Source: a virus
Length of the DNA stretch: 20,005 bases
Direction: 5' to 3' (one strand)
IMG/VR virus record: IMGVR_UViG_3300008120_004222
Span: 1-20,005 of that record
The notes under the pieces were generated by a model, which saw only the letters and a program-made list of their open reading frames with translations, was not told where the DNA came from and searched no databases. The translations under genes and the position numbers were made by a program. Shown piece by piece: positions 2,139-20,005 of this stretch (positions are counted from its first letter, which is position 1; each line of letters starts with the position of its first letter).

Positions 2139-2805
2139 AAATCGCTCCATGCCCTGGATAATTTTCAATTATATCAAATAGAAATGTTGCAAATTGAACA
2201 TTTTCATAATTATTAAAATGATTAGGAAAACGTTCTATATCCGTGTTTAGTTTATGATAATTATAAAGAGGATCCATTATTGTAACACCATGTTTAAATT
2301 TATATAATGGTTTATTATGCCAATCAGGAAAACTATAAAGATGAATGACCTTTTCAATTTGATGTTTATTCATAATCCAATCAATCTCATGAAACCATTG
2401 ACGCATGGTCCAATCTTGAAATTCATGTGATAATAGATGGTTATAAAATCCTTCTGCTGCCTTAGCTAAATCTTCAGGCATCACCTTTTTTTGTTTTGGT
2501 ATTAACTCACGTATTTCAACACTTCTATGATTCAATGCATAATCATAGTCGCTTGGAATTCGCATTTTTTCGGTATGACAAAATATAATAACTTTTGGTA
2601 TTGATTTGTTTAATTCTTTCATTAAACAACGTCTTGTGCTCCACCAACTAGCACCATCAAATCCTGCACCGTTAGGTATTCTAGTTCTATCATATTCATT
2701 ATTACTTAATTTACAAGTAAGTGCTTGTGGCCAATCGGTCTCAGATAATCTATCTGAACAAAAGCTATCACCAACAATCAAAATATCATTCCAATTATAT
2801 GTCAT
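2116..2805 (-). CDS. SGNH-hydrolase-like protein, copy 1
   Basis: A 229-aa protein whose N-terminus, ILIVGDSFC (GDS at residues 12-14), matches block I of SGNH/GDSL esterases. A GxGFxGASWWS segment follows (about 47-56), then a beta-strand with FCHTE (75-79) and a late PNH (194-196), which can supply the block-V histidine. SGNH enzymes are usually esterases or acetyl-transferring enzymes acting on sugars and peptidoglycan. Here the fold is inferred from motifs only. The start has a clear AGGAG with 6-nt spacing and overlaps the stop of copy 2 by 11 nt. It is a tandem paralog of the next gene upstream. It may work with the carbamoyltransferase on the same modified substrate. Confidence 0.65.
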   Translation of the reverse strand: MTYNWNDILIVGDSFCSDRLSETDWPQALTCKLSNNEYDRTRIPNGAGFDGASWWSTRRCLMKELNKSIPKVIIFCHTEKMRIPSDYDYALNHRSVEIRELIPKQKKVMPEDLAKAAEGFYNHLLSHEFQDWTMRQWFHEIDWIMNKHQIEKVIHLYSFPDWHNKPLYKFKHGVTIMDPLYNYHKLNTDIERFPNHFNNYENVQFATFLFDIIENYPGHGAIYDKKIFE

Positions 2806-3487
2806 AACAATCTCCTAAATTTAACCTCTCTGTATATATTTGTCCATATTCTAGATAATTATCTATTAACTTGGTAAGAATTTTCGCTAATTTATAATTT
2901 TGTTCATCCGTTAAATGATTAGGAAATTTTTTAGGATTTAAGGTTTTATCTCTATAATTATAGAGTGCATCTTGAATAGTAATACCAGTCTTAAATTTGT
3001 AAGTTGCTATGCTATCTTTAGAATTTTTCCAAAACATGTCAGGAAAACAATGTAGATGAATAACCTTTTCAATATTATTTTCTTTTATGATTGAATCTAC
3101 TTCATCAAACCAACGTAATTGACACCATCTATAATAATCTAATGAATGAAGATGTTCAAAATATTTTACAGCAGCATCAAATCTTTCACCTCTATGTTGA
3201 TTTTCTAAGACAGACCAATAATTATATCCATAATCATAGTCACTTGGTATTCTATTAGCTTCTGTATGACATAGAATTAATAACTTTATAGGCTTATAAC
3301 TTAATTCTTCTAATAGTCGTTTTCTAACACTCCACCAACTAGCCCCTGGAAATCCTTTTCCCCTAGGTTCCAGTTCATGTTTTTCTGTAATTTTGTTTGT
3401 GAATATTTTTGGCCAATGATTATCGCCGGTTCTTTCTGCACACCAGCTATCGCCAATTATCACAATATCATCCCAATTATACATCAT
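2795..3487 (-). CDS. SGNH-hydrolase-like protein, copy 2
   Basis: A paralog of the following gene, with matching landmarks in order: MYNWDDIVIIGDSWC, GFPGASWWS, LCHTE, RIPSDYDY, DxxYNY and FPNH. GDS offers the nucleophile serine and PNH the histidine expected of an SGNH fold. I chose ATG 3487 because it aligns with the start of copy 1; ATG 3484 is equally possible, and a TTG lies at 3490. It ends inside the start region of copy 1 (11-nt overlap), so the two are co-translated. By eye the copies share a little under half their residues, which implies an old duplication. The region is clearly richer in A/T than the structural genes. Substrate unknown. Confidence 0.65.
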   Translation of the reverse strand: MMYNWDDIVIIGDSWCAERTGDNHWPKIFTNKITEKHELEPRGKGFPGASWWSVRKRLLEELSYKPIKLLILCHTEANRIPSDYDYGYNYWSVLENQHRGERFDAAVKYFEHLHSLDYYRWCQLRWFDEVDSIIKENNIEKVIHLHCFPDMFWKNSKDSIATYKFKTGITIQDALYNYRDKTLNPKKFPNHLTDEQNYKLAKILTKLIDNYLEYGQIYTERLNLGDCYDI

Positions 3488-3499
3488 CAATCCATTATT

Positions 3500-5403: not shown

Positions 5404-6183
5404 CTATTTAGACTTTTTCGCAGATGATTTGGCTAGCGTTTCGCGAGCCTTCTTGGTCAATGACTTCAGATGCGAGCGAGTTGGGCTTGCATCTTTAGAC
5501 TTAGTATAGGGACCTTCGAACGGAGGCTTCTCTGTTGTGACTGCTTCAGCAGGAACACAGTTAGGAACCATGCGTCCACCTTTATTCTTCATACCCTTAG
5601 CAACATAACCAGACCAGCAAGCTTCATTTACTTTACTCTTAATTGCATTATTCAATGAATCGCGATTAGCATGAATTTTTTTAGTAAATTCATCCTTATC
5701 TTGTGTAGTTCTCATTGAATTGTGTGTAGATATAATTTGTCTAGCAAGATGTCTGTTTATCTTAGACTTAGATCCATCAACATGATGAAAATGTGGTTCT
5801 TTTCCATCACCACTTGCAGCAATTCTAGACATTTGAATCATTGGGTGCATATGCCCAGCAGGATCATCATCATCTTTAGATTTTGATTTGCGATCATATG
5901 GATCCTTAACTTTACTTTTAACATCTAAGTACCCATGGACTACACCTCGGCCTTGACCCTTGCGAGCACCTTCTTCAACACTTTCTTTCATCTCTGACTC
6001 CATATAATCACGCGCAGTCAGAACATAGTCCTGTGCAAGCGTGATTTTGAGTTGGACCCACTCTGGTAGGTCCGTCTCAGGTTTCAGCATTGACATAAGA
6101 GCTTCGGCGTTAGATATGATAGACTTTAACTGGCTAATTGCCATATCACCTTCATATCCATATTCGCGTTTGTCTTTAGCCAT
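5404..6183 (-). CDS. Conserved T4-like phage protein (259 aa), probably virion-associated
   Basis: I use ATG 6183 because AAAGGA lies 9 nt upstream and the preceding stop is 4 nt away. The resulting MAKDKREYGYEGDMAISQLKS start fits the family, whereas the longer 277-aa reading adds unrelated residues. Residues 1-75 (EGDMAISQLKSIISNAEALM, then LPEWVQLKITLAQDYVLTARDYM) form a helical domain that recurs in proteins of marine T4-like phages. The middle is His/Lys/Asp-rich and likely flexible. Residues 185-210 carry CWSGYVAKGMKNKGGRMVPNC, another recurring short motif with two cysteines. The C-terminus is Lys/Ser-rich. Function is unknown; being within the late block suggests a head or internal component. 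Confidence 0.7.
   Translation of the reverse strand: MAKDKREYGYEGDMAISQLKSIISNAEALMSMLKPETDLPEWVQLKITLAQDYVLTARDYMESEMKESVEEGARKGQGRGVVHGYLDVKSKVKDPYDRKSKSKDDDDPAGHMHPMIQMSRIAASGDGKEPHFHHVDGSKSKINRHLARQIISTHNSMRTTQDKDEFTKKIHANRDSLNNAIKSKVNEACWSGYVAKGMKNKGGRMVPNCVPAEAVTTEKPPFEGPYTKSKDASPTRSHLKSLTKKARETLAKSSAKKSK
5405..5412 (-). promoter_or_regulatory. Possible late promoter variant (TCTAAATA)
   Basis: TCTAAATA matches the T4 late -10 element TATAAATA at seven of eight positions. It overlaps the stop codon of the 259-aa gene, 55 nt before the next ATG, the same arrangement as the clearer late promoter at 13943-13950. A single eight-base near-match is weak evidence on its own. Confidence 0.3.
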
Positions 6184-6187
6184 TCTA

Positions 6188-6790
6188 TTAGTCCTTTGTT
6201 GGAACTTTAGGTGCAGCTGTTCCACCAACCTTACCACCCCACTTCTTAGTAAGGGCTAGAGCGCGGCCAGTCTTGCGCTTTTCGACTTCTTTTGGTGAGC
6301 TGGTTTCTGGATCAGTCTTTTTTAGATAACGACTAGCAAGACCTGTCGAGATTTCTTGAACCGGTACAGTTTCTTCCTTGGCCATCTTAGTAGCCGTAGC
6401 ATACATCACTTCTTTAGCACGCTCACCATAACGCTTCTTGAAGCCACCCATCTTTTTCTTGAGTGACATCACATATTTTTCTTTCTTATCAGTCTCAGCC
6501 CCGGTCAGCTTGCGCTCATCGACTTGCTCTTCCTCTTTAAGCTTCGGATCCAGCTCAACCTTTTCTTTGCGAGTCGCGACAATTGTACCCATGCGCTCAC
6601 CGCTATTTTCCTTCTTCAGGACACCGCGGCCAACCAGCACGTCTTTGTGCGTGATCTTATCCTTTGGGTGAGCCAGCGCAGCTAGCTTCTTTTCTTTATC
6701 ACCCTTAGGCACCGTATGCTCTTTCTCCATGATGGAGCGAACTGCGGCGATAAGTGAGTCTGATGACCCGAATTTACTATTGTCTTTCAT
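6188..6790 (-). CDS. Lys/Glu-rich conserved phage protein (200 aa), possible head or scaffold component
   Basis: A highly charged protein with low hydrophobic content. It begins with a helix (SDSLIAAVRSIMEKEH), continues with K/E-rich stretches and has a basic segment, GGFKKRYGERAKEVMYATA, near residues 115-135. I recall that segment recurring in internal-head or scaffold-type proteins of marine T4-like phages. The charge pattern resembles prohead core proteins. VQEIS near residue 148 could be a gp21-type cleavage site. A strong AAGGAGGAG site precedes the start. No enzymatic motif is seen. The prohead role is inferred from composition and late context only. Confidence 0.65.
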   Translation of the reverse strand: MKDNSKFGSSDSLIAAVRSIMEKEHTVPKGDKEKKLAALAHPKDKITHKDVLVGRGVLKKENSGERMGTIVATRKEKVELDPKLKEEEQVDERKLTGAETDKKEKYVMSLKKKMGGFKKRYGERAKEVMYATATKMAKEETVPVQEISTGLASRYLKKTDPETSSPKEVEKRKTGRALALTKKWGGKVGGTAAPKVPTKD

Positions 6791-12633: not shown

Positions 12634-13377
12634 TCACACGAAACACGAAAGATTTATTTTTTTCTTGTCAATCGTGACACTTTTACCATCTACAGGGGCT
12701 ATATTGAAAGGAGATTTATTTGTCATAGAAAATTGCATTTCAAAAGTAAATTGGTAATTATCACTTCCCTTATATTGTACCCTAGCACGATATATTGCTT
12801 TAGCTGATTGAGAAAATCTAGGAACTCCTTTTAAACCAAAAGGATTAGAAGAACCAAAAAGATAAAAACCGTGGGTACCAACATTGACATAATATGTCTT
12901 TTTTCTATTATAATAATCTTCTATCTTAGAAGCTGGGATTTCACCTTTAATATCTTTGAATATTGAAAGGTCACGTTCATATCTTTGTCTAGCAGTCATC
13001 TGCCCTGCTGTAGCTTCCCATAGATCATCTTTATCTCTTTTAAATGGTATTTCTTTCCATTGTTTTTTAATAGTATCAAATAGACCGACATATTCGGCAA
13101 GTTCAGCAATGAATATCTTTTCTTTATCCTCAGGTCCTATCTTACCAAATCCCCATGGTGATCTTCTATTTTTGCCATCATATTTTATGACTAATGATCC
13201 TGCCGAGGCCGCTGTTATTTTTAATTCACAACCTGCAGTCTTTTTCTTATACATAAGCATTAAATCCGGTTGATCAGAGCCGGCGCCCGCAGGTTTAAAA
13301 TCTTTGGGGACAAATCCCATAGGTTTTAATATTTTTGCTGTATTTTCTTCATAAAGAAATCCTTGCTGAGCTGCCAT
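12634..13377 (-). CDS. PD-(D/E)XK nuclease-like protein (247 aa)
   Basis: GSDQPDLMLMY followed by AGCELKITAAS gives PD (residues 37-38) and E-L-K (51-53) with a 12-residue gap, the signature spacing of PD-(D/E)XK nucleases. An upstream glutamate in GFLYEE (10-11) suits the conserved N-terminal helix. The remainder is mixed alpha/beta with no other recognised domain. FLYE at residues 7-10 also fits the [F/W]-L-x-E start shared with the two neighbours. GGGGG lies 5 nt before the ATG, and the gap to the upstream stop is 1 nt. The gene is more A/T-rich than its late neighbours. Cutting host DNA or processing phage DNA after entry are possible roles. Motif evidence is good but short. Confidence 0.65.
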   Translation of the reverse strand: MAAQQGFLYEENTAKILKPMGFVPKDFKPAGAGSDQPDLMLMYKKKTAGCELKITAASAGSLVIKYDGKNRRSPWGFGKIGPEDKEKIFIAELAEYVGLFDTIKKQWKEIPFKRDKDDLWEATAGQMTARQRYERDLSIFKDIKGEIPASKIEDYYNRKKTYYVNVGTHGFYLFGSSNPFGLKGVPRFSQSAKAIYRARVQYKGSDNYQFTFEMQFSMTNKSPFNIAPVDGKSVTIDKKKINLSCFV

Positions 13378-13378
13378 C

Positions 13379-13918
13379 TTAACCCCCGAATTTTTTCATA
13401 TGGCCCTCAATAAATTCAGGAGGAATCGGTTTCTTAAACCGAACCTCTGTAGCCATATAATATTCGGAGTCAGCGGCCTCTGGATTTTTAGCTGTCCATT
13501 TGTAATATTCATTGCGATCCATCATGCGCTTCTTGGCATCACCCATGTTACCACGCAGATCAGCATCCATATTACGCTCTGCCCAATCGGCAGGTATTTT
13601 TAATTTTAAAACTGAGCGTTCGCTATGAGGAGTCGTGGTAGCTTTAGCATTGACACCTCTAAAATGTGCTTCACCCCCACCACCAGACATGGATGCATAT
13701 CCATGTGCGGTATGGGGATCTGGTGTTGTTGAATACATTCCTGTAGATGGATCTGGTCTATTGATACCAGATTTCATCATTGATGCTACATTGCGGTCAT
13801 GCGTGCCATGATATAGGATATAGTGATCACCTTCACGCCACCATCCACGACGTTTCGCTTTATCGAAAGGAAGTCTATTAGACTCCGTTTGTTCGAACAA
13901 CCATCTTTTGAATGACAT
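13379..13918 (-). CDS. ADP-ribosyltransferase-like protein (179 aa), first gene of the late block
   Basis: The pattern ILYHGTHDRNVASMMKSGI (YHGT at residues 36-39), then GMYSTTPDPHTAHGYA (60-75) and a C-terminal ATEVRFKKPI (156-165), follows the H-Y-E layout of diphtheria-toxin/PARP-type ADP-ribosyltransferases. Candidate NAD-binding and catalytic residues are H37, Y62 or Y74, and E158. Such enzymes move ADP-ribose from NAD to proteins or nucleic acids. T4 packages a different, R-S-E-type enzyme (Alt) and injects it to modify host RNA polymerase. The N-terminus MSFKRWLFEQ has WLFE at 6-9, a likely capsid-targeting/cleavage signal. GAGGT precedes the ATG, and a late promoter lies 25 nt upstream. 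Target unknown. Confidence 0.7.
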   Translation of the reverse strand: MSFKRWLFEQTESNRLPFDKAKRRGWWREGDHYILYHGTHDRNVASMMKSGINRPDPSTGMYSTTPDPHTAHGYASMSGGGGEAHFRGVNAKATTTPHSERSVLKLKIPADWAERNMDADLRGNMGDAKKRMMDRNEYYKWTAKNPEAADSEYYMATEVRFKKPIPPEFIEGHMKKFGG

Positions 13919-17024: not shown

Positions 17025-18063
17025 GTTCTACCTCACTTGTTTCACCTTGACCATACTTAAATTCTTTGGCTGCGACCGCATCAATACGATCTAGCAAATC
17101 TTTTGTAAAGAACCGTTCAGGATCTTGTTCAATTTGCTTTGCATAATATTTTCCACCATCAGGCATCTCATAGCGATTCGCGATCTTCTTGATTATACCA
17201 TATTTCTCAGCCAAGTCAAGCAATCCGTAGTAACGATCAAGGCCCTTATCATAAGATAGCCTTACATCAATCGACTTGTTTTCCTTAGTAAAGCGACTCT
17301 TCGCTACACGGCAATGAATGATATTACCAACAACTTCTGTGCCATCACGATCTTTCTTCTTAGATAGAAAAATAATCTGCGAGGCTGCATACTTCAAACC
17401 TTCACCACCACCCATATCTTTGGTCGGCACATATGCACCGATCACATTGAAGATATGATTGGTCACCAGCAGCGATACATTGGCCCGCGCAAGCTTGAGT
17501 GATAGTGCGCGGAAAGCACCACGAATAAGCTGTGACCGAGTCATATCGCGTGTATTCTTACCCTCTGCGATATCTTCCAATTCTTTTTCAGTTGAAAGCT
17601 GGCCAAGAGAGTCAAGCACCATGAGCATCTTTGGTCGTTCTTTCTCAGGCACCTTGAGATAATTATCAAGCGTTCTCATAACATGAGTGCGAAAGCCCTG
17701 TACAGTTGCCTGTTCAGAAATAACAACCCGGCGCGGATCGATTCCACGAGCTACAAACATTTCCTTAGTAACCGCAGCTTCTGTGTCATAATAAAAGACA
17801 CCAGCATCAGGATTATCTTTCAGGAACTGTTGCACGAGACCAAGAACAAAGAATGTCTTACCCGTTGCGCTTTCACCAGCAAATGCGGTGATTTTATTAT
17901 TAGGCACACCACCATAGATGCTGCCAGATAGTTCTGCATTTAATAGATATGAACCTGTATCCATTGCACCAGCAAATTCTGATGAATGTAAACCATCATC
18001 AGCAATATGTGTATCAACGTCACCGATTTGTTTAACCAAATCTCTAAAAAAATCTTTGCTCAT
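16987..18063 (-). CDS. uvsX: RecA-like recombinase UvsX
   Basis: Forms filaments on ssDNA and drives strand exchange for recombination-dependent replication. At 358 aa it is slightly shorter than T4 UvsX (391). Walker A GESATGKT lies at 63-70, Walker B MLMVLDSLG has D151, and VTNHIFNVIGAY with MGGGEGLKYAASQIIFLSKK matches the L2/DNA-binding area. The C-terminus is acidic (EVEHDEEES), as in many recombinases, where it modulates DNA binding. Its start overlaps the stop of the 211-aa gene (ATGA) behind GGAGATAAATC. The order polymerase, uvsX, 41 matches other T4-like phages. Confidence 0.95.
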   Translation of the reverse strand: MSKDFFRDLVKQIGDVDTHIADDGLHSSEFAGAMDTGSYLLNAELSGSIYGGVPNNKITAFAGESATGKTFFVLGLVQQFLKDNPDAGVFYYDTEAAVTKEMFVARGIDPRRVVISEQATVQGFRTHVMRTLDNYLKVPEKERPKMLMVLDSLGQLSTEKELEDIAEGKNTRDMTRSQLIRGAFRALSLKLARANVSLLVTNHIFNVIGAYVPTKDMGGGEGLKYAASQIIFLSKKKDRDGTEVVGNIIHCRVAKSRFTKENKSIDVRLSYDKGLDRYYGLLDLAEKYGIIKKIANRYEMPDGGKYYAKQIEQDPERFFTKDLLDRIDAVAAKEFKYGQGETSEVEHDEEESANETAS

Positions 18064-18695
18064 GATTTATCTCCTTGTCTAAATTCTGTCATGTAGCTGT
18101 TGTCTGTGATTAGATTACGTTTGTTTTCTACGGAATATACTGTCATGTCGATCTGATATCCTGGGTTATTTTTGAGCGGTACATCAATCCATGCATCATC
18201 ATGCCATATGATTCTATTGTTTGGGTATGCATAAAAATTACCATCATCAACCTTAAACATGTGAGCACATTTATGCTCAGGTGTCTCACTAAAATTGGTA
18301 TCTAAGATACCCTTATTCTCCCATGACCAATCCATAGTAAACATATATTCACCACTAATATGACTACCATCACAACGAATTAGTTGTGCGCGTAATCCAG
18401 CCATACGGGTGCGAATATTAACATCAATATATGGGCTAAAGCAGTTCCAGTAATAGCAATCTTCAATTTTTGGAACTGGTGCATCTTTCTTCCAACAGAA
18501 GGCCATTAACGGTCGGCGTGTCCAATTGACACCATTATCTAGAAAGGCCTCAAAGAGAGGCACCCGCTTCTCCATACTTGCGACACTATGCACATCACAT
18601 AGTGTAAATTCACCATAACCCTTCTCATGATTGTACAGATATTCATTCCGCATATAACATGTGAATGTCGGAAGATTATGATTCAAGTATGCCAT
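18060..18695 (-). CDS. Unknown 211-aa protein between gp43 and uvsX
   Basis: A soluble protein rich in aromatic residues and cysteines, with no signal peptide or membrane segment. Landmarks are FTCYMRNEYLYNHEKGYGEF, WTRRPLMAFCWKKDAPV, YYWNCFSPYI, MFTMDWSWEN and HMFKVDDGNFYAYPNNRI. I do not recognise the family. Its ATG overlaps the stop of the gp43 tail by 1 nt and its stop overlaps the uvsX start by 4 nt, so it belongs to the replication operon. Ten or so Trp/Tyr residues in pairs suggest a compact beta fold. Function unknown. Confidence 0.75.
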   Translation of the reverse strand: MAYLNHNLPTFTCYMRNEYLYNHEKGYGEFTLCDVHSVASMEKRVPLFEAFLDNGVNWTRRPLMAFCWKKDAPVPKIEDCYYWNCFSPYIDVNIRTRMAGLRAQLIRCDGSHISGEYMFTMDWSWENKGILDTNFSETPEHKCAHMFKVDDGNFYAYPNNRIIWHDDAWIDVPLKNNPGYQIDMTVYSVENKRNLITDNSYMTEFRQGDKS

Positions 18696-18889
18696 TATGC
18701 AAAAAACCTATCTAGCGTTGGTCGTTCCTCATCTTCCCATCCTATAACATTGAGGATAGATCGAAGAGGATCGAGAAATGCCTTTTCAAATTGTGTCTTA
18801 TAATCTATGTATCGCTCGACCTCAAACTCTGATGGTAGAATAGATGCGATAGCCAACACATTCTCATTTAATGGATTGGGCATTTTCAT
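18695..18889 (-). pseudogene. 43: Detached C-terminal fragment of DNA polymerase gp43
   Basis: The 64-aa reading contains LPSEFEVERYIDYKTQFEKAF, then LDPLRSIL and TLDRFF. This matches the end of T4-like gp43 (LP, helix, WIDY, FEKxF, PL and a final LxxFF, the sliding-clamp-binding tail). Coding similarity continues upstream of the ATG to about 18916, where the frame reads DGDKVKFCYMKMPNPLNEN, again as expected of gp43. It lies in the -1 frame relative to the polymerase ORF. No ribosome binding site precedes the ATG. The TAATG junction with the 211-aa gene shows this was the original end of gp43. Confidence 0.75.
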
Positions 18890-18900
18890 ATAGCAAAATT

Positions 18901-20005
18901 TTACCTTATCACCATCTTTCCTCTTGGAAATGCAATATCTTCAAAGCGCATCTTATTGAATTGCTCACGGAAAGATGCAATAAACTGATGCATTGCATTT
19001 TCATCTTTAGTCATAATGATATTCAATGCATCTTTAATAGCCTTACGACAAAACGCGGGAGTCGAAGATTTTACTGCTTCGATGCCCATCATCTTTAGCT
19101 TTGGTGTTTCATATCGCACACCTTCAGAGTCATGAACATTCAGAATGTAACGCTTCTTACCTGTCCAGATACCACGGTCTGCGATATTCTCTCGCTTCAT
19201 AGACATCTTCTGTGCGAAGGCATTCATATGCTCGCGCAGGCCTACATATATCTTGTCAATGACTGGCTTAAATGCTTGCGATGCAATCTTATCAAGGTAG
19301 GTGACAATCTGTTCGGTTGTAGGAGTTTTGTCTTTAAATACCTTAGCAACCAGACCATCAAGCGTGATATACAAGCTATCGGTATCAACCGCGATAACAT
19401 AATCAACATCTTCTGTACCAAGAAGCTTATTGATATATTCATTAATCTTAACTTCAGCCCAGCGAATAGAAAGCTGACCACCGACTGTGATAGCTGTAGC
19501 CTGATTAAGGTCATAGAAGCGGAAATATGGATTACCGATTGCACCGTAAGCTGAGTTTAGCTGAACTTTTTTTGCAAGCTGCATGTTCTTATATCGGGAT
19601 ACAGACTTTTCATGGTCGCGCTTTTCTTGTGGAGTCTTTGCAGATTCAACAGCCTTTTGAGCCTCAATCATCTTGCGCTTATATTCAGATCGACTCTCAT
19701 ACATGCGTTCCATCATCTCAGGTAGAAAGCCCTGAGACTGATTGCTGAAGTATCGACCATTTGCAGCAAGGCTATAACCTTCGCGCAGAGGCGGCTGATA
19801 ATTTGGATCGAGTAGATTATCGACAGTAATATCCACACGATTTACACGATCAAGTGTCTCGGGTGAGATATTATATTGCATGATCAAGTGTGGATACAGT
19901 GAATCCAAATCGAATGACAATACCCATTGATGCGCGCCAACAAGTGGTTCTTTGACATATGCGCCAACATAAGCTTCATCCTTGCTGCCACCACCAGTGA
20001 TAGGC
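18901..20005 (-). CDS. 43: DNA polymerase gp43 (family B), C-terminal half; 5' part beyond the right edge
   Basis: Replicative polymerase. The frame is open to base 20005 (YVGAYVKEP, then HQWVLSFD). Polymerase motif A is FDLDSLYPHL, motif B is KKVQLNSAYGAIGNPYFRFYD and motif C is AVDTDSLYI. KKRYILNVHDSEG, then KMMGIEAVKSSTP, matches the palm-thumb junction of T4 and RB69 gp43. The palm is therefore intact. The frame stops at 18901 shortly after EDIAFPRG, roughly 35-45 residues before the thumb segment resumes in another frame. The exonuclease domain is outside the window. As it stands, the encoded protein would lack the thumb end and the clamp-binding tail. A genuine split enzyme, a disabled copy or an assembly error are all possible. 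Confidence 0.92.
   Translation of the reverse strand, partial: PITGGGSKDEAYVGAYVKEPLVGAHQWVLSFDLDSLYPHLIMQYNISPETLDRVNRVDITVDNLLDPNYQPPLREGYSLAANGRYFSNQSQGFLPEMMERMYESRSEYKRKMIEAQKAVESAKTPQEKRDHEKSVSRYKNMQLAKKVQLNSAYGAIGNPYFRFYDLNQATAITVGGQLSIRWAEVKINEYINKLLGTEDVDYVIAVDTDSLYITLDGLVAKVFKDKTPTTEQIVTYLDKIASQAFKPVIDKIYVGLREHMNAFAQKMSMKRENIADRGIWTGKKRYILNVHDSEGVRYETPKLKMMGIEAVKSSTPAFCRKAIKDALNIIMTKDENAMHQFIASFREQFNKMRFEDIAFPRGKMVIR

Follow-up and report, generated by a model that had tools for sequence, protein, structure and literature searches.

The window is an entire virus contig of 20,005 bases, which carries a block of T4-like genes on the minus strand. The genes follow one another in the order gp43 (open at the contig end), a gene for a 211-residue protein, a RecA-like gene, a gene for a 109-residue protein, a DnaB-like helicase gene and further genes. 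The RecA-like gene is presumably of the UvsX type, and the gene at the other end of the contig looks like a primase gene. The locus around the 3' end of gp43 contains the following features:

18901 to 20004, minus strand: gp43 (family B DNA polymerase), palm, fingers and the start of the thumb; open reading frame with a Pfam DNA_pol_B match (E=8.1e-29)
18919 to 18920, minus strand: deletion junction at which 121 nt (40 codons and 1 nt) are absent; located by blastn and by alignment with contigs L082-L089, L136 and L140
18695 to 18919, minus strand: C-terminal 74 codons of gp43 (end of the thumb and clamp-binding tail) and the stop codon; read in frame -1 with respect to the upstream part, with the layout seen in relatives
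18060 to 18695, minus strand: 211-residue gene, function unassigned; intact, overlaps the gp43 stop codon, 99-100% identical to the closest relatives

The upstream part of gp43 occupies a minus-strand frame of 367 open codons (20004-18901), which ends in ...FEDIAFPRGKMVIR and a stop. The family B polymerase motifs DSLYP, NSAYG and DTDS are all found in this one frame. Its product has PDB matches to RB69 gp43, and over 361 residues it is 98.9% identical to residues 361-721 of the 835-residue gp43 of a related contig, G001. The frame is terminated prematurely by a TAA codon (18901-18903), which follows PRG-KMVIR. The -1 frame picks up at KDGDKVKFCYMKMPNPL and continues through ...KDGDKVKFCYMKMPNPLNENVLA... 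to RFFA and a stop (18919-18695), which is the normal gp43 C-terminus. Translation of the minus strand therefore confirms two statements of the initial annotation, namely that the gp43 frame passes from EDIAFPRG into KMVIR and a stop at 18901, and that the -1 frame runs on to the normal end of the gene at 18695. The complete thumb and the clamp-binding tail are not found in the same frame, 40 residues being absent and the frame being changed.

The first search with gp43 leads to contig L001 (86% amino acid identity), in which gp43 is intact. A search with the neighboring 211-residue protein finds contigs much closer to the window, including the ten IMG/VR contigs L082-L089, L136 and L140, which are about 95% identical to it on both flanks of the junction. 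All ten have 121 extra bases at this point and a single open frame. One deletion of 121 nt (40 codons and 1 nt) therefore explains both the lost residues and the change of frame; its position is ambiguous by up to 2 nt. The missing bases encode IQGLGKYRMVEKGIPIHVRASQTYNTRLKQLKLDKTYDLI (40 residues plus one base). The deleted residues correspond to 722-761 in the gp43 of G001, where the 74 residues that follow form the C-terminus, and they align to about 785-825 of RB69 gp43, in the thumb. The frameshift also removes the clamp-binding tail, which in RB69 gp43 comprises residues 883-903 (PMC3012046). The core of the initial annotation, an internal deletion with a frame change in the gp43 thumb and 35-45 residues missing, is thus supported, and the alignment with close relatives that it proposed now fixes the loss at 40 residues, or 121 nt, between 18919 and 18920. 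It had also proposed looking for the thumb segment elsewhere in the genome; the rest of the contig contains no protein match to it and only chance matches of 9-11 nt.

The segment is retained in frame in all 102 of the related loci that span the site, with 39 or 40 of its 40 residues aligned and no stop codon. Among the loci fetched, none of these 102 joins the two flanks without the segment, and none carries the identical short thumb in one frame, which was the case that would have spoken against a lesion. Because all 102 have the segment in a single frame, chance can be excluded. A search of the viral contig collection with the exact 32-nt junction gives no match, and a search with a 31-nt stretch just downstream of the junction does not turn up the strain a second time. 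The records searched may leave out those closest to the window, so that an identical strain may exist; all relatives compared differ from the contig by about 5%, and a lineage fixed for the deletion is thus improbable rather than strictly impossible. The loss of 121 nt, the change of frame and their uniqueness among the compared loci are thus matters of observation. As written, gp43 breaks off beyond the counterpart of residue 721 in the 835-residue protein of G001, and the predicted product lacks 40 residues of the thumb as well as the last 74 residues.

The 3' end of gp43 (18695-18856) differs from the closest relatives much more strongly than the flanking DNA does, synonymous sites included, with a peak of 13-15 differences per 50 bases at 18707-18756. 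This patch has possibly been recombined from an unsampled lineage. It has been considered as the boundary of a chimera and rejected as such, as its start is a good way downstream of the junction and none of the other compared lineages matches it better.

The codons that follow the break give an indication of its age. In comparison with relatives, these 74 codons contain 29 substitutions, of which 9 are nonsynonymous (P=3e-8 against neutral evolution). The dN/dS ratio of about 0.12 is similar to that between intact lineages. When the changes are polarized with seven outgroup loci and the branch of the window is taken alone, 6 of the 15 substitutions are nonsynonymous and 9 are synonymous (P=0.001), i.e. 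the codons are still constrained. Most of the divergence thus dates from a time when gp43 was intact, and the deletion is either young or never existed in the phage. The slow decay of an old pseudogene is rejected on the grounds that the codons after the break still bear the marks of selection.

The sequence at the junction suggests how the 121 bases might have been lost. Microhomology between the breakpoints amounts to 0-2 nt: the dinucleotide AA if the parent resembled contig L086, and none if it resembled L084. The right breakpoint (3776-3778 of L086) is at the foot of a perfect 9-bp hairpin, TTGATAAGA-CCTATGA-TCTTATCAA. This is the sole perfect hairpin of at least 8 bp with a loop of at most 12 nt in the 1430 nt of the gene that were examined, and hairpins of at least 9 bp occur five times in 26 kb of the relative. 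The chance that a breakpoint falls within 2 nt of such a foot is on the order of 1%, an estimate made from hairpin densities for a coincidence that was noticed afterwards. As a DNA fold, the region in its entirety is unremarkable (z = -0.99), the local 9-bp hairpin alone standing out. A polymerase copying the coding-sense template might stall at the foot of this hairpin. The stalled 3' end could then re-anneal about 121 nt further on, at the AA match, and continue synthesis from there. The position of the hairpin suits such a pause and re-annealing, be it in the phage or during amplification, and the combination of a 0-2 nt match with one breakpoint at a hairpin foot is shared with the short deletions that occur at microhomologies and hairpins through replication slippage or as amplification chimeras. 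A plain de Bruijn assembler does not easily fuse sequences that share 0-2 nt unless reads cross the junction; the join was thus probably present in real DNA molecules, whether natural or amplified.

By combining these observations, it is possible to weigh the ways in which such a gene could have come about. The initial annotation listed four: a natural deletion, a join made in assembly, a faulty intron excision and an unusual recoding event. The first two, with amplification added to assembly, are still standing, and the other two are unsupported. What the contig contains is very probably an ordinary T4-like gp43 that has recently suffered an out-of-frame deletion of 121 nt in the thumb, carried either by a defective molecule or minor variant or by a product of amplification or assembly. 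An artefact (a chimera from whole-genome amplification or library PCR, or an assembler error near the contig end), with the gene intact in the phage itself, appears somewhat the better bet. All 102 spanning relatives are intact at the site, the junction is just 1.1 kb from the contig end, and an essential gene is broken here without any compensating feature or decay. Furthermore, amplification with phi29 polymerase is known to rearrange DNA when displaced 3' ends re-anneal nearby, but that study found 85% of the junctions to be inverted and, among 475, just 11 direct joins under 10 kb, which makes a short direct deletion the rarer form (PMC1855051). The absence of Ns from the contig, and hence of any N run marking a scaffold join, also speaks against this origin. 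The assembly around the junction is otherwise sound, as the adjacent 211-residue gene is intact and 99-100% identical to that of the closest relatives. A natural deletion in a real phage genome, giving a defective variant that is dead or is kept by co-infection with intact relatives, is a serious but less probable origin. The hairpin foot and the short match at the breakpoint suit replication slippage on a DNA template, and assemblers seldom invent such joins; on the other hand, an allele with a defective polymerase would be expected at low frequency and would not often be the one that a contig consensus records, and the junction is absent from any second contig in the viral collection.

The readings in which the polymerase still works have far less in their favor. 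It is very improbable that the contig comes from a viable lineage with a polymerase whose thumb is 40 residues short and which is produced by frameshifting or put together from two chains, or one that relies on a polymerase from the host or a co-infecting phage. Even less credible is a functional split polymerase like that of Aeromonas phages 25 and 44RR, in which the C-terminal piece is translated separately. In those phages inserted DNA separates 43A and 43B, and the split pieces of the phage 25 gp43 co-purify and are active (PMC2988022). The window likewise has the coding sequence of gp43 interrupted into two frames, and the ATG at 18889 could start a C-terminal fragment. However, this fragment would have just 64 residues, the ATG is preceded at best by a weak AAGG 14 nt upstream, and no inserted element separates the parts. 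Whereas the Aeromonas genes were split by an insertion, here 121 nt are lost, nothing is inserted, the second piece has 64-74 residues, and 40 residues are wholly absent, so that the two frames do not together hold the whole of gp43. A programmed -1 ribosomal frameshift that fuses both frames into a short-thumb polymerase is the least believable reading of all. The frames do differ by -1 and share an overlap of a few codons, but the junction, CCA AGA GGA AAG ATG, contains no slippery heptamer of the form X XXY YYZ, in agreement with the earlier remark that GGAAAG is not a canonical slippery site. The pattern expected of programmed frameshifting (a slippery heptamer with downstream structure, conserved in relatives) is not seen here: two frames or a short thumb occur in 0 of the 102 spanning relatives, and even the fused product would be without 40 residues common to every relative. 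In some relatives, gene 43 is known to contain introns (PMC2993671). None of the compared relatives carries an insertion at the junction point and the window contains no intron remnant; the scar of an intron or intein is rejected, as the difference consists of the loss of 40 ordinary conserved thumb codons.

The window thus shares with gp43 of the T4/RB69 type an ordinary palm, ordinary fingers and the first part of the thumb, and differs from it in the 40 lost thumb residues and the change of frame, which leave a truncated product without the clamp-binding tail. Such a truncated gp43 is not expected to replicate a genome and would be non-functional. It is therefore most unlikely that a thriving phage has this form of the gene fixed; a recent defect, or an artefact of laboratory work or assembly, is most likely, rather than a new kind of polymerase. 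The biological import is accordingly small, as this is a broken copy of a well-known gene that is intact in every close relative. If the lineage were viable after all, the question would arise of what part of the thumb a replicative polymerase can do without. The locus also advises caution, since in a single metagenome contig a one-off deletion or a chimera, which is the simpler explanation, can pass for the splitting or recoding of an essential gene.

In a comparison with G001, nearly all genes other than gp43 that have a counterpart agree closely with it in length, most of them also in frame, and the exceptions noted are sited in regions that are variable or contain in-frame differences. No other clearly broken conserved gene is found in the contig by this comparison, which leaves gp43 as the one clear lesion. 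The gene at 6188-6790 is about 59 residues shorter than its G001 counterpart (200 versus 259 residues), the two differing in frame-preserving fashion near 6369-6379. At 12634-13377, a position that varies between otherwise conserved genes, G001 has an unrelated gene and the window a 247-residue gene with no Pfam match; by eye, the stretch SDQPDLMLMYKKKTAGCELKI of the latter resembles a PD-(D/E)XK nuclease motif. The adjacent 179-residue protein (13379-13918; YHGTHDRNVASMMKSGI...STTPDPHTAHGYA...TEVRFKKPIP), which also has no Pfam match, is by eye a candidate ADP-ribosyltransferase-like protein. A carbamoyltransferase gene at 578-2023, with both Pfam domains (E=3e-50 and 2e-38), adjoins two tandem, related genes of about 230 residues at 2116-2805 and 2795-3490. 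A short cysteine-containing module (CWSGYVAKGMKNKGGRMVPNCVP) of a 277-residue gene, at 5532-5633, matches part of a different gene, of 1057 residues, in G001, and this match suggests that modules have been shuffled between genes.
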